Source: Candidatus Uhrbacteria bacterium (GTDB taxonomy: Bacteria; Patescibacteriota; Patescibacteriia; 2-12-FULL-60-25). Taken from it: a stretch of 64,000 bases of DNA. The position numbers and the translations under genes were made by a program. Positions 22,798 through 30,356 of the stretch are shown one piece after another. How positions within the stretch are numbered: the stretch's first letter is position 1; each line of letters starts with the position of its first letter. The notes beneath the pieces were generated by a model. The model ran no database searches. It saw only the letters and a list, made by a program, of their open reading frames with translations, and had not been told where the DNA came from. The DNA lies in assembly GCA_021413945.1 (NCBI GenBank), contig JAIOPK010000006.1, forward strand, positions 310,001 through 374,000, written 5' to 3'.

Positions 22798-24069
22798 ATG
22801 ATTCCTCCTTTTATCAGAATTAAAAACAACGAACTTCCGTCATCGCCGGGGGTGTATTTGATGAAGGATAAGAACAAGAAAGTCATCTACGTAGGGAAAG
22901 CGGTTTCTTTGAATCGACGAGTTCGCCAACACTTCGATCGCCCTCATGGTCCGCAGATTCCGGAGATGACGCGGCAAGTCGTTGAGATCGACTATATTGA
23001 GAAGCCGACAGCGCTCGAGGCTTTGGTTTTGGAAGCGAACCTGATCAAACATTTTTGGCCAAAGTACAACGTACTGCAGAAGGACAATAAGTCTTTCATG
23101 TATTTGGGGATTACGGACGAAGATTTTCCGCGGCCTTTGCTTGTTCGCGGTACAGATCTCGATGATGAGACGGCGAAGAAATATAAAGTTGTGTTTGGGC
23201 CGTATACATCGTCACGATCTTTGAAAGCGGCGCTCGACTTGGTGCGTAAAGCTTTTCCTTGGTCGACGTGTATTCCGGGACAGAAGCGTGCGTGTTTTTA
23301 TCATCATTTGAAATTGTGTCCGGGGGTTTGTGTTGATGCGGTCGACAAGAAGGTGTATCAGAAGACGATTCGGGATTTGACGCGCTTCTTTGAAGGGAAG
23401 AAGGAGGATATTTTGAAGGACTATCAGAAGCAGATGGTGAAGTTATCGAAAGAAAGGAAGTATGAAGAGGCTGGGGAGATTCGGAATAAAGTTTATTTTC
23501 TCGAGCACATCCAGGACGTGGCGGTTTTGAAACGCGACGACGAATTGGTCGACAAGATTCGTCCGGGTGAGGGGATGGTGGTGAATTTGTTTGGGCGAAT
23601 TGAGGGGTATGATATTTCGAATATTTCTGGAACATCGCAAGTTGCTTCAATGGTGGTGTTCGAGAGTGGGGCGCCGGCAAAGGCGGAGTATCGGAAGTTT
23701 AAAATCAAGACTGTCGAAGGACCGAATGATGTTGCGTCGTTGCGCGAGACTTTGATGCGGCGGTTTAAGCATGATGAGTGGCGGATGCCGGATTTGATTC
23801 TCATCGATGGCGGGTTACCGCAGGTGCACGCTGCCGAAGAAGTGATGCATCATTTGAATATTCAGATTCCGGTTGTGGGGATCGCAAAGGGCGCACAGCG
23901 AAAGCGGAACGATATTATTTGTTCGCAGGTTTCTATCGAACTATGCGAGCTTTGCCGCAAGTATGTTGATTTGTTGGCGCAGGTGAGAGACGAGGCGCAT
24001 CGATTTGCGATTACGTTTCATCGAAGCGTGAGAAGTAAGGCGTTTTTAGGCAAGAAGGTTGACAGGTAA
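22798..24069 (+). CDS. uvrC: Excinuclease ABC subunit C, short form
   Basis: UvrC makes the two incisions of excision repair. The N-terminal GIY-YIG nuclease (PGVYLMKDKNKKVIYVGKA), the UVR helical pair (RKYEEAGEIRNKVYFLEHI) and the RNase H-like second nuclease (YDISNISGTSQ, LILIDGGLPQVH, RDEAHRFAITFH) are present. The protein stops at 423 residues, just after the nuclease domain. The usual C-terminal double helix-hairpin-helix DNA-binding domain of about 150-200 residues is missing. The ATG at 22798 gives the standard start. The last codons overlap the promoter of the arginine kinase. Confidence 0.94.
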   Translation: MIPPFIRIKNNELPSSPGVYLMKDKNKKVIYVGKAVSLNRRVRQHFDRPHGPQIPEMTRQVVEIDYIEKPTALEALVLEANLIKHFWPKYNVLQKDNKSFMYLGITDEDFPRPLLVRGTDLDDETAKKYKVVFGPYTSSRSLKAALDLVRKAFPWSTCIPGQKRACFYHHLKLCPGVCVDAVDKKVYQKTIRDLTRFFEGKKEDILKDYQKQMVKLSKERKYEEAGEIRNKVYFLEHIQDVAVLKRDDELVDKIRPGEGMVVNLFGRIEGYDISNISGTSQVASMVVFESGAPAKAEYRKFKIKTVEGPNDVASLRETLMRRFKHDEWRMPDLILIDGGLPQVHAAEEVMHHLNIQIPVVGIAKGAQRKRNDIICSQVSIELCELCRKYVDLLAQVRDEAHRFAITFHRSVRSKAFLGKKVDR

Positions 24070-24087
24070 GCAAAATAAGACTATCCT
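24059..24087 (+). promoter_or_regulatory. Arginine kinase promoter
   Basis: TTGACA (24059-24064), 17-base spacer, TATCCT (24082-24087). The start would be near 24094, leaving a leader of about 60 bases before the ATG at 24154. Confidence 0.7.
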
Positions 24088-24153
24088 CTCATGGCCTATA
24101 AAGTGGGTAAACTGCTCATTTTACACGAATTTAGGCTGAAAGGTTTTTACTCA

Positions 24154-25227
24154 ATGCTCACACAGAACCCGTCCAATAACGGCCACACCACTATGTCCGA
24201 GACCAAGATGTCGCTCGCCGAGAAGTACATCCGCGCGCTTGCGCCGGAGAAGCTCAAGGATCTTCTGTTCCGTACCTCCAAGGGAGGCTTCACCCTCGGT
24301 GACGCCATCCGCTCGACGGTTCAGAACCCCGACTCGTCCGTTGGCGCCTACGCCGGCGACGCGGACTCGTACGACACGTTCGCCGATTTCTTCGGTCCTC
24401 TCATCGAGGAGTACCACGGTTTCAATGGTACTCACGTGACGGATTTCGACGTGACGAAGATCTCGACCGAACCGGTCGATCCGACGGGAGAGGCGATCGT
24501 CTCGACGCGCATTCGTGTGGGCCGCAACCTGGCCGCCTATCCGCTCGCTCCGCTGATCACTCGTGAACAGCGTCTCGACCTCATGAACAAGGTCTCGGCC
24601 GTGCTCAAGGAGAAGCTCACCGGCGATCTTGCCGGAGAGTTCTATCCGCTCGAGGGCATGCCGGAGGAGACGCGCGTCCAGCTCGTTCAGGATCACTTCC
24701 TGTTCAAGCAGGGCGACCGCTACCTCGAGTCCGTCGGCGCGAACCGCGATTGGCCGGAGGGACGTGGCATCTTCCACAACGCCGACAAGACGGCGCTCGT
24801 GTGGATCAACGAAGAGGACCAGCTCCGCATCATCTCGATGCAGAAGGGTGGCGACATCCGCGCGGTCTTCGATCGTCTCGCTCGCATGGTCGAGATCATC
24901 AACGCGTCGCTTCCGCTCTCGTATCACCCCAAGTACGGGGCCGTCTCGTCTTGTCCGACCAACCTCGGAACGGCGATGCGCGCCAGCGTGCATGTGAAGC
25001 TGCCGTTCGTGAGTTCGCGCGAGGACTTCAAGCAGCTCGCGACGGATCTCAAGCTTTCGATCCGCGGGGTCGACGGCGAGCACTCGGAGTCCAAGGGCGG
25101 TGTCTACGACATCTCCAACAAGCGCCGCCTGGGCGTCTCGGAGGTCGAGGCCGTGCTCACGATGTACGAGGGCATCAAGAAGCTCCTCGAGATCGAGCGC
25201 GAGATGGCTGCCAAGGCGGCTGCGTAA
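24154..25227 (+). CDS. Arginine kinase (phosphagen kinase, animal type)
   Basis: Phosphagen kinases move phosphate between ATP and a guanidino compound, buffering ATP. From the ATG at 24154 (GAAAGG 10 bases upstream) the protein is 357 residues, the length of Limulus arginine kinase. It has the helical N-terminal domain with DSSVGAYAGDADSY, absent from bacterial McsB. Active-site residues are present: Arg119/Arg121 (STRIRVGRN), the Glu pair in NEEDQLRIISMQ, Cys267 in SSCPTNLGT, Arg276, Arg304 and Glu309 (RGVDGEHSES). CPTN rather than CPSN points to an arginine-type substrate over creatine; this is inference. Codon use is markedly GC-rich, unlike uvrC. Own promoter and terminator suggest an independently acquired gene. 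Confidence 0.95.
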   Translation: MLTQNPSNNGHTTMSETKMSLAEKYIRALAPEKLKDLLFRTSKGGFTLGDAIRSTVQNPDSSVGAYAGDADSYDTFADFFGPLIEEYHGFNGTHVTDFDVTKISTEPVDPTGEAIVSTRIRVGRNLAAYPLAPLITREQRLDLMNKVSAVLKEKLTGDLAGEFYPLEGMPEETRVQLVQDHFLFKQGDRYLESVGANRDWPEGRGIFHNADKTALVWINEEDQLRIISMQKGGDIRAVFDRLARMVEIINASLPLSYHPKYGAVSSCPTNLGTAMRASVHVKLPFVSSREDFKQLATDLKLSIRGVDGEHSESKGGVYDISNKRRLGVSEVEAVLTMYEGIKKLLEIEREMAAKAAA

Positions 25228-25254
25228 GCAAGAGTGAGGGACCTTTCCCTCTGC

Positions 25255-25292
25255 GAGCCTCCCGATGACACATCGGGAGGCTCTTCGTTTTT
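25255..25292 (+). terminator. Arginine kinase terminator
   Basis: A perfect 13-base stem (25255-25267 with 25271-25283), triloop and T run at 25288-25292. Confidence 0.93.
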
Positions 25293-25343
25293 GGTATAAA
25301 GTGGGAAATGAAGTTACCCACACCGGAACGGAAAAAGAACAAG

Positions 25344-25370
25344 AAATGCGCTTTAACAAGCGCATTTTTT
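25344..25370 (+). terminator. Second terminator upstream of mraZ
   Basis: A perfect 10-base stem (25344-25353 with 25358-25367) with loop TAAC and T tract. It lies 50 bases beyond the previous terminator and isolates mraZ from upstream transcription, or ends a short RNA starting near the box at 25295. Confidence 0.85.
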
Positions 25371-25385
25371 GATTGTTCACTAACT

Positions 25386-25414: not shown

Positions 25415-25437
25415 GGTGAGCAGTGGGATGAAGTGGA
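25412..25437 (+). promoter_or_regulatory. Likely MraZ operator (three 10-bp-spaced repeats)
   Basis: Three direct repeats, AATGGT, AGTGGG and AGTGGA, start at 25412, 25422 and 25432. TGG is kept in each at an exact 10-base period, as in known MraZ operators built from TGGGN repeats. They overlap the -10 box and transcription start, fitting autorepression. Confidence 0.65.
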
Positions 25438-25465
25438 AAATCCTCTTCATTCGACTTCCGTTCCT

Positions 25466-25897
25466 ATGTTCATCGGTGAATACCACCACACGCTTGATGA
25501 AAAAGGCCGGATGAGTGTTCCGGTCAAGTTTCGTGCATCCCTGGCGGAAGGCGCTGTGGTCACGCGCGGGCTCGATCGATCGTTGTTCCTTTACCCCAAG
25601 AGCGAGTGGCAAACACTTGCCGAAAAGCTGGCGTCCTTGCCGTTTGGCCAGGCTGACACCCGCGCTTTTGCACGCTTAATGCTGGCAGGCGCGATGGAAG
25701 TCGAGGTCGACAAGTCCGGACGCGTGCTTCTTCCGGAATACCTGCGTCAATACGCCGCCCTCGACAAATCCGTCGTGGTCGCGGGTCTGTATAACCGTTT
25801 GGAAATCTGGGATGAGGCTACGTGGAAGGAGTACTCGGCCAAAACCGAGTCCGAGGGCAATGCCATCGCCGAACGTCTTCAAAACCTCGGCGTATGA
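25466..25897 (+). CDS. mraZ: Transcriptional regulator MraZ
   Basis: MraZ is the AbrB-fold regulator that heads the division and cell-wall cluster and binds its own promoter. The 143-residue protein has the two tandem MraZ repeats: MFIGEYHHTLDEKGRMSVPVKF, then DKSGRVLLPEYLRQYA. The ATG at 25466 fits the conserved N-terminus; an upstream GTG at 25433 would add 11 unrelated residues and lies in the operator. Its stop overlaps the rsmH start (ATGA). Confidence 0.96.
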   Translation: MFIGEYHHTLDEKGRMSVPVKFRASLAEGAVVTRGLDRSLFLYPKSEWQTLAEKLASLPFGQADTRAFARLMLAGAMEVEVDKSGRVLLPEYLRQYAALDKSVVVAGLYNRLEIWDEATWKEYSAKTESEGNAIAERLQNLGV

Positions 25898-27677: not shown

Positions 27678-30356
27678 ATGGAGCAATACTCTCCGATTTT
27701 GTGTCCGGTCTGCGGAGGCGATGCGCGCGCATCGCTTGGCTGTAAGGCGTGTAAAGGTGCGGGCGTGAGCTTGTCGACGGAACGTGGATCATTGGTGTGG
27801 CTTGCTTCGATTGATCGCGGGACGTTTGCGGTGCGGTCTACGCGTCGGACGACGCATACGGTTCTGCATGCGCTGATCGGTATTGCGATTCTTGGATGTT
27901 TCGCTTGGTTTGGTATTGGCGTGTGGTTAACGGGGGACATCATGTCGCTGACAACGTCGATCTTCTGGTTTGGCGGTTCTTGGGCACCGATGGGGTTGTG
28001 GCTTGGATTGTTTCTGCTTAGTTTCTTGGTTTTTCGATTACGTGTTTATAACGATAATGCGAGGATTCTGCCGAGTTGGGGGAAGCCGAGTTCGCAAAGT
28101 GGAGAGCGTAAAGCACAATCGGAGGTTGTGCGGGATGTGGCGCCGTATTTTACTGAGGCGGCTTGGGAGATGCTGCAGCGTGCGTACGACTTGTCGGAGA
28201 AGGTCGGCAAATCGGAAATTAAAGCTTCGCATCTTTTTGCCGCGGCGCTTGGGACGACGGCCGGTGGGATTTTCTTGACCAGACTCGGACTTGAGTTTGA
28301 TAAAGTTCGCGACGGTCTTGCGCGGATTGTGAATGACGGTCCCTCCGGTGCGCCGCCCGTGATGACGCTGGAAGCTAAGAGCGTATTGCTTGAGGCGGCG
28401 GCCGATGCGGAAGCTTCCGGACGGAAACATATCGGCACGATCGAAGTATTTTTGCGCGCGTTTGAAATCGACCCGAGAATCCAGACGGTTTTTGATGCCG
28501 CGGGGTATCCACCGCGCCATGTTCGTCTTGTCGCCGAGTGGATTCGGGTTCAAGAGACGCTCAAAGAAGAGCATGACCGTTTTGTCTTGCTCGCGTCGCT
28601 TAAACCGACCGGCGCCATGAATCGGTCGATGACGGCTCAACAGACGCCGTATCTTGATCGGTTTAGCGAGGATTTAACCCAGCTAGCTCGGCAAGGCTAT
28701 GTGGCGCCGATGATTGGAAGAGATCGTGAGATGCAGGAGTTATTGAGAGGTATCGAGAGTGGTAGACGCTCGATCGCGCTTGTCGGTGAGGCGGGGAGCG
28801 GAAAAGGTGCGCTTATCGACGGGTTGGCACGGCGCATGGTGGAGGAGGATGTTCCTAAGGAATTGTTCGACCGCCGTCTTGTGTCGATCCATGTTGCACA
28901 GGTCCTTGCGGCGGGGGATCCGGGTCTGGCTCCGCAGAGATTATTGACGATGATGAGCGAGGTCGCGATGAGCGGGAATATTATTTTGGTCATGCACGGA
29001 ATCGAGGCCTTGGTCGGCGCAGGCGGCGGGACGATGGACTTGGCAGAGACGCTCGCATCGGAAATCGACAAGGGGTATTGCATCGTTATCGCTACAACGA
29101 CTCCGCAAGCGTGGACGTCCTATTTGGAGCGACGATCACTTGGACAGAAGCTGATTAAAGTTGAAGTGCCGGAACTCGATCAAGACAATGCGATACGCGT
29201 GCTGATGGCTAAGGGAGGGTATATCGAATATCAGAATAAAGTTTTCTTTACGTATGCGTCGCTTGAAAAGGCCGTCACTCTCGCCGGAAGATATTTGCGC
29301 GACGTAAAATTGCCGGAATCGGCGCTGAATGTGCTGACGGAATCCGCAGTTCTCGCCAGGAAGGAGCGCGGGGAGGGTGCGATGGTAAGCGGGGAAGACG
29401 TGGCGCGCGTGATTCAGGATAAGGCGCATGTTCCGGTAGAGGCTGTGACGCAGGATGAGGGCGACAAGCTTTTGCAGCTCGAGGATCATCTGCATGGCCG
29501 CGTCGTCGGACAGGAAGAGGCAGTGAAGGCTGTTTCGCAAGCGATGAGACGAGCTCGAGCGGATATGCGCTCCGGCAATCGGCCGATTGCGAACTTTTTG
29601 TTCCTTGGGCCGACGGGTGTCGGAAAGACCGAGCTCGCAAAAGCGTTGGCGGCGGAATATTTTGGGAGCGAGTCGATGATGATTCGACTCGACATGTCGG
29701 AGTATCAGACGCCATCGTCGATCTCTCGCGTGATCGGCGAGCCGGGAGATAACAAAGGCGGGTTGCTGACGGAGGCGGTGAGAAAACAGCCGTTTGCGAT
29801 CGTTCTTCTCGATGAATTAGAAAAAGCGCATCCGGATATTCTTACGCTGTTCTTGCAGGTGATGGACGATGGTCGTTTGACGGATGGGGTTGGTCGTACT
29901 GTCGATTTTACGAACGTGGTACTGATCGCGACGTCAAATGCAGGAACGGATTTTATCCAACAGGAAGTACAAAAAGAGACGCCGATCGAACGAATCAAGA
30001 CGGCGTTGCTCGAGCGCGAGCTGAAAGGAATTTTCCGTCCGGAGTTTCTCAACCGTTTTGACGGCGTGATCGTCTTCAAACCGTTGACGCTCGATGATGT
30101 GACGCAGATCGCTTGGCTCTTGCTTCAAGGCGTGACCAAGCGCTTGCAAGAAAAAGGAATCAATTTCCGTGCGGAAGACGAGGCGGTGGAAACGCTTGCG
30201 AAGGATGGATATGACCCGATTTTTGGAGCGAGACCATTGCGTCGAGTGATTCAGGAACGCGTGGAGAATCAATTGGCCGACTTACTGCTGCGCAATGCCG
30301 TGAAACGGACGCAAACGGTTGTATTGAAAGCGGACGGAACGCTTGGAGTCGAGTAA
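27678..30356 (+). CDS. Membrane-anchored Clp/HSP100-family ATPase with degenerate D1 and altered pore loops
   Basis: An 892-residue protein. It begins with a four-cysteine zinc ribbon (CPVC, CKAC, residues 9-26), two membrane helices (about 62-84 and 96-122), then a ClpN-like helical domain (~145-290). D1 (~345-560) is degenerate: Walker A is GEAGSGKG without the Thr/Ser, and Walker B reads ILVMHGIEAL in place of the usual hhhhDE. D2 (~600-880) keeps Walker A GPTGVGKTE, Walker B IVLLDELEKAHP, sensor 1 TSNAG and sensor 2 GARPLRR. However, the D2 GYVG pore loop is replaced by GEPGDNKGG, and no IGF/LGF ClpP loop is seen. So it is unlikely to be an ordinary ClpC unfoldase feeding ClpP. A membrane-bound remodelling role is inferred. 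Confidence 0.92.
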   Translation: MEQYSPILCPVCGGDARASLGCKACKGAGVSLSTERGSLVWLASIDRGTFAVRSTRRTTHTVLHALIGIAILGCFAWFGIGVWLTGDIMSLTTSIFWFGGSWAPMGLWLGLFLLSFLVFRLRVYNDNARILPSWGKPSSQSGERKAQSEVVRDVAPYFTEAAWEMLQRAYDLSEKVGKSEIKASHLFAAALGTTAGGIFLTRLGLEFDKVRDGLARIVNDGPSGAPPVMTLEAKSVLLEAAADAEASGRKHIGTIEVFLRAFEIDPRIQTVFDAAGYPPRHVRLVAEWIRVQETLKEEHDRFVLLASLKPTGAMNRSMTAQQTPYLDRFSEDLTQLARQGYVAPMIGRDREMQELLRGIESGRRSIALVGEAGSGKGALIDGLARRMVEEDVPKELFDRRLVSIHVAQVLAAGDPGLAPQRLLTMMSEVAMSGNIILVMHGIEALVGAGGGTMDLAETLASEIDKGYCIVIATTTPQAWTSYLERRSLGQKLIKVEVPELDQDNAIRVLMAKGGYIEYQNKVFFTYASLEKAVTLAGRYLRDVKLPESALNVLTESAVLARKERGEGAMVSGEDVARVIQDKAHVPVEAVTQDEGDKLLQLEDHLHGRVVGQEEAVKAVSQAMRRARADMRSGNRPIANFLFLGPTGVGKTELAKALAAEYFGSESMMIRLDMSEYQTPSSISRVIGEPGDNKGGLLTEAVRKQPFAIVLLDELEKAHPDILTLFLQVMDDGRLTDGVGRTVDFTNVVLIATSNAGTDFIQQEVQKETPIERIKTALLERELKGIFRPEFLNRFDGVIVFKPLTLDDVTQIAWLLLQGVTKRLQEKGINFRAEDEAVETLAKDGYDPIFGARPLRRVIQERVENQLADLLLRNAVKRTQTVVLKADGTLGVE

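Follow-up and report, generated by a model that had tools for sequence, protein, structure and literature searches.

A complete arginine kinase gene with its own promoter in a Candidatus Uhrbacteria genome without ATP synthase genes

The ATP-buffering enzyme arginine kinase is most familiar from the muscle of invertebrates, and phosphagen systems typify animal and protist cells whose energy demand comes in bursts. Arginine kinases are known from only a few bacteria, among them Desulfotalea psychrophila, Sulfurovum, Moritella, and Myxococcus xanthus; their distribution is patchy and their origin, possibly horizontal, is debated (PMC6429109). Among Patescibacteria, Saccharibacteria can maintain their ATP without a host by means of an arginine deiminase system (PMC12815258).

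Here, we analyzed a 64,000-nucleotide stretch of DNA (the window) from a Candidatus Uhrbacteria genome (G000), a 1.05-Mb draft in 23 contigs that is rated 100% complete. A gene at positions 24154-25227 of the window, on the forward strand, appears from its sequence to encode a genuine, complete two-domain arginine kinase (AK; ATP:guanidino phosphotransferase, EC 2.7.3.3), with activity and substrate predicted accordingly. It is an additional member of an established family in an unexpected host. To our knowledge, it is the first arginine kinase in Patescibacteria, and we found no mention of such an enzyme there in the open-access papers searched.

Like the known bacterial enzymes, AK is a full-length phosphagen kinase with conserved arginine-binding and catalytic residues, and it shares their patchy distribution and debatable horizontal origin. 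It differs from them in its host, a Patescibacterium whose genome lacks ATP synthase genes, in being only 38-57% identical to the bacterial copies compared, and in its very high GC3 and long branch. With the invertebrate enzymes (Limulus 1m15, shrimp 4bg4, Anthopleura 4rf6), it shares architecture, length, catalytic residues, and predicted fold, but it is 48-54% identical to them, carries the alanine of the bacterial enzymes at Limulus position T278, and was not supported as nesting within the animal clade. McsB has the catalytic PF00217 domain in common with AK; unlike AK, it lacks PF02807 and continues past the phosphotransferase domain into a C-terminal dimerisation domain (PMC12467219). 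The saccharibacterial arginine deiminase resembles AK, in the role predicted for the latter, as an arginine-based ATP source in a Patescibacterium. However, it is an unrelated enzyme that consumes arginine, and no member of its family was found in G000 as a partner for AK.

Protein architecture and predicted fold

The AK reading frame opens with ATG and encodes 357 amino acids with zero internal stops. An alternative in-frame ATG at 24091 would give a protein of 378 residues, but conservation of the peptide MLTQ-PS-NGHTTMSETK in the congener favors 24154. Pfam profiles match both phosphagen-kinase domains over practically their whole length, with PF02807 at residues 19-85 (E 3.8e-17) and PF00217 ending at residue 350 of 357 (E 1.8e-68). 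The sequence-only reading had described a full-length arginine kinase, and the length and both domains agree with that description. Among solved structures, AK is closest in sequence to the enzymes of Anthopleura, Schistosoma (taurocyamine kinase), shrimp, and Limulus; it scores lower with creatine, lombricine, and glycocyamine kinases and much lower with McsB. A 409-residue open reading frame overlaps AK on the opposite strand (24151-25380, reverse strand) and looks like a by-product of the GC3 of AK.

We compared AK with the Limulus arginine kinase sequence, matched to PDB 1m15 along its full length. In the alignment, AK retains the catalytic and nucleotide-binding residues examined (R124, R126, E225, R229, C271, R280, R309, and E314), the arginine-specific N-terminal loop D62-S63-x-V65-G66-x-Y68, and R193, T273, N274, and H315. 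The earlier statement that all active-site residues of the Limulus enzyme are present holds for these 17 positions, but not for G64 and H227, which are Ser and Gln in AK. A further substitution places Ala at T278. Each of the three occurs in other arginine kinases: Ser at G64 is also found in Anthopleura domain 2 and in some bacterial copies, while Ala at T278 is common to AK and the bacterial copies and is not seen in the animal ones shown.

The AlphaFold model of AK, for which the window and locus sequences served as input, has a mean pLDDT of 82.7 and aligns with solved arginine kinases at TM scores of 0.82-0.86, consistent with a phosphagen kinase fold. Such an enzyme would catalyze the reaction ATP + L-arginine <-> ADP + phosphoarginine.

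Genomic setting and signs of horizontal transfer

AK occurs in two of the three genomes of its genus: in G000 and, as a copy 92% identical, in Candidatus Uhrbacteria Kiruna3_bin-2585 (G001). No phosphagen-kinase catalytic domain was found in the third genome (G002) or in any of the 38 other genomes of the order, nor, beyond G000 and G001, in overlapping samples of 380 genomes of the phylum and 381 of the class. We found no arginine kinase in viral contigs, and among plasmids only that of Ca. Bandiella woodruffii bears a full-length relative, the remaining matches being McsB-type. This Bandiella phosphagen kinase (NZ_CP110821.1 55143-56240; 37% identity, annotated 'hypothetical protein') adjoins IS5 and IS6 transposases, and its host is a symbiont in a Euplotes culture. 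The sequence-only reading held phosphagen kinases to be rare in bacteria; this is true on the whole, although arginine kinase turns up repeatedly in Campylobacterota MAGs.

The interval upstream of mraZ is variable within the genus. The G000 order is uvrA, a small ORF, uvrC, AK, mraZ, and mraW, where the upstream neighbor is a short form of uvrC (22810-24069, forward strand; PF08459, PF01541) and the downstream neighbor is mraZ (25433-25897, forward strand), common to all three genomes. In G001, AK lies between an ATP synthase operon whose last gene is atpC and two unknown ORFs, after which come mraZ and mraW. G002 has no AK; there, uvrA and uvrC are followed by a NUDIX gene and unknown ORFs, then mraZ and mraW. 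The core gene uvrC, which precedes this different insert in G002, marks the insertion site.

A sigma-70-like promoter matching the consensus, TTGACA-17-TATCCT, lies at 24059-24087 on the forward strand, with its -35 hexamer within the final codons of uvrC. Terminator scanning and folding place an intrinsic terminator with a 13-bp GC-rich stem and a T-rich tail at 25255-25283 (forward strand), and the segment 25228-25300 folds at -37.1 kcal/mol (z -6.2). The consensus promoter and strong terminator that had been attributed to the gene are thus both present. A strong hairpin also follows AK in G001 as judged by folding, and the terminator scanner returned no T-tailed terminator there. G000 and G001 share homology over about 100 nt upstream of AK (score 94, against 37 +/- 5 and at most 55 for shuffled sequences). 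This shared segment contains TTGACA and a -10-like element despite the unlike upstream genes, uvrC and atpC, and nothing similar was found in the stretch 3' of uvrC in the AK-less G002. Because the promoter region is homologous though the upstream genes differ, AK appears to move, or to be retained, with its own promoter.

The codon usage of AK sets it apart in both genomes. In G000 its GC3 is 0.84, whereas a background of 73 ORFs taken from about 124 kb averages 0.60 (s.d. 0.07). This accords with the GC-rich codons noted from the sequence alone, and among genes of at least 300 codons AK shows the largest codon-usage departure from this background. In G001, the GC3 of AK is 0.81, compared with 0.36-0.64 for other genes (tuf 0.49; ribosomal genes 0.43-0.55), and AK avoids codons preferred by tuf, as with Pro CCG (0.79 in AK) versus CCA (0.63 in tuf). 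We rejected high expression alone as the source of the GC-rich codons: in G000, AK leans as tuf does but further, whereas in G001 it opposes tuf for several amino acids. Since the G001 copy avoids tuf-preferred codons, translational selection alone is insufficient.

Two side observations concern the same genome. G000 carries two different EF-Tu genes (C2:138014-139195 and C5:85-1281), of which the one at the end of C5 may stem from contamination or represent a second tuf. The sole other strongly GC3-rich pair in the roughly 124 kb consists of an aspartate-kinase-like gene (GC3 0.80, forward strand) and an aminotransferase-like gene (GC3 0.85, reverse strand) at about 379.2-381.7 kb of contig C2 (locus L068, 4248-5636 and 5688-6650); it is possibly a second transferred block.

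Between G000 and G001, AK has a dS of 0.38, while core-gene values start at 0.63 and extend to saturation (an entry of 0.04 in the same table belongs to an antisense ORF, not a core gene). Silent codon identity is 0.78 for AK against 0.58 expected for independent draws; the corresponding values are 0.60 and 0.45 for tuf, and 0.44 and 0.35 for mraW. As the observed 0.78 exceeds the expected 0.58, codon bias does not account for the excess in AK; silent-site constraint from high expression could add to the low dS. The two copies are almost identical in the center and diverged at the ends, a pattern suggestive of recombination. These data are most simply read as a lateral arrival in the genus and an exchange after the lineages split. 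The horizontal acquisition suggested in the sequence-only reading is supported by the patchy distribution, the foreign codon usage, the low dS, and the shared promoter segment. Its recency holds only relative to core genes, whose dS is higher; in absolute terms, the transfer is not recent.

The neighborhood also bears on two other explanations of AK. A gene for a ClpA/B/C-type ATPase lies 2.5 kb downstream (27678-30356), and AK matches McsB models weakly, as might be expected of an McsB-ClpC-style protein-arginine kinase tagging proteins for the nearby Clp ATPase. We consider this very improbable. The scores of AK against the NCBIfam McsB models, 134.6 and 115.6 bits, are far under the respective cut-offs of 385 and 500, and the protein has the N-terminal phosphagen domain with Y68 and a catalytic domain that reaches almost to its end, where McsB would have its dimerisation domain. 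Moreover, the AK-less genome G003 has a Clp gene at the same place, so the Clp gene is a long-standing neighbor whose position has no relation to AK. The McsB-like role was rejected on the model scores and this synteny, and the initial distinction of AK from McsB stands. Contamination or a chimeric assembly, which the draft state of the genomes and the composition of AK, unlike that of neighboring genes, might suggest, is hardly credible: the 563-kb AK contig holds the genus's own uvrA, uvrC, mraZ, and mraW, and G001 also has AK upstream of mraZ with a homologous promoter region.

Candidate donors

A scan returned 38 loci, mostly Campylobacterota-type copies with 46-57% identity to AK. Copies also occur here and there in genomes assigned to Bacteroidota, Chlorobi, Deinococcus group, and Gammaproteobacteria, some of which may be misbinned. 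The top-scoring matches to the Uhrbacteria AKs are Campylobacterota arginine kinases (55-57% identity). The Anthopleura domains, from the closest animal enzyme, are 52-54% identical to AK, and arthropod enzymes 48-51%. In the mixture-model tree, the Uhrbacteria pair falls, on a long branch (1.5) and with very low support, among the copies from Sulfurovum, and the eukaryotic enzymes form a separate clade (90/95). AU tests on a second tree, with the longest branches removed, gave p-AU values of 0.50 for the pair with eukaryotes, 0.51 for the pair with Anthopleura, and 0.38 for a bacterial clade without the pair, so that none of the three is rejected; the tree joining Uhrbacteria and eukaryotes has a log-likelihood 0.39 higher, with the eukaryote grouping resting on 5-8 animal rows. 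The phylogeny therefore separates the eukaryotic clade, but the data do not fix the attachment of the Uhrbacteria pair; the trees and AU tests do not decide the donor, and we claim none. The description of AK as animal-type fits its architecture; as a statement of origin it is not supported, given the Campylobacterota top matches and the separate eukaryotic clade.

We assign about an even chance to a bacterial source, either in the arginine kinase pool that Campylobacterota typify or in some lineage of it with higher GC outside the present sampling. The predominance of Campylobacterota-type copies among the loci and the placement in the mixture-model tree point this way, but no close source is at hand (best match 57%), the branch is long, and the GC3 of the Campylobacterota-type copies, 0.10-0.62, is distant from the 0.81-0.84 of the Uhrbacteria AKs. 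The same compositional distance fits acquisition from a eukaryotic host or prey, a protist or an invertebrate, reflecting cell association with eukaryotes. The cnidarian Anthopleura enzyme as closest solved structure, the p-AU and log-likelihood of the joint tree, and the plasmid-borne kinase of Ca. Bandiella woodruffii, a ciliate endosymbiont, also speak for such a donor. We nevertheless regard it as rather unlikely, given that the best-scoring matches are bacterial, that the alanine at T278 is shared with bacterial copies, and that few animal and no protist sequences underlie the grouping. Separately, some bins assigned to Gammaproteobacteria, Chlorobi, Deinococcus group, and Flavobacteriaceae contain arginine kinases resembling those of Campylobacterota, through either transfer or misbinning.

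ATP synthase genes and a putative role in ATP buffering

Components of ATP synthase were present almost without exception in a survey of groundwater Patescibacteria (PMC9938205), and the Fo a subunit occurs in 37 of 41 genomes of the order. In G000 and G002, the F1 beta protein search was empty, no PF00006 match for F1 alpha/beta exceeded the cut-off, and no Fo a subunit (PF00119) was found. ATP synthase genes thus appear to have been lost from two members of the genus out of three, each with a genome rated 100% complete. From its gene content, G000 appears to be without chemiosmotic ATP synthesis, and the fermentative cell proposed from the sequence alone gains support; since the genome is a draft in 23 contigs, the operon could be missing from the assembly alone.

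Without F-type ATP synthase genes, G000 would obtain ATP from substrate-level phosphorylation or from a host. When ATP is plentiful, AK would phosphorylate arginine and charge the phosphoarginine pool; when the supply stops, phosphoarginine would return ATP, making AK a temporal ATP buffer. The gene would have entered the genus horizontally as a self-contained unit of promoter and coding sequence, into the variable interval upstream of mraZ, and later, once the lineages had diverged, would have been exchanged within the genus or acquired again. The presence of AK would best be explained by a need to buffer ATP in a cell that lacks chemiosmotic synthesis. We infer this role and its link to ATP synthase loss, along with enzymatic activity, substrate, and expression level, from the comparisons above. 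Taken together, we consider it probable that AK is a genuine arginine kinase, acquired horizontally with its promoter and exchanged in the genus, and that it most likely serves as a temporal ATP buffer in G000. A more far-reaching scenario, in which this Patescibacterium abandoned chemiosmotic ATP synthesis, lives on a phosphoarginine reserve, and received AK from an AK-bearing eukaryotic host, seems to us improbable.

The genus offers a natural comparison: G000 has AK without ATP synthase, G001 has both, and G002 has neither. AK as a strict replacement of ATP synthase was rejected on this pattern, and the link between the two is suggestive only. AK in a genome without ATP synthase genes provides a concrete, testable idea of how host-dependent ultrasmall bacteria might bridge ATP gaps. 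As a minor observation, the ATP synthase operon lies directly upstream of AK in G001 (contig C40), and it lies more than 100 kb from mraW in G015 and G022.
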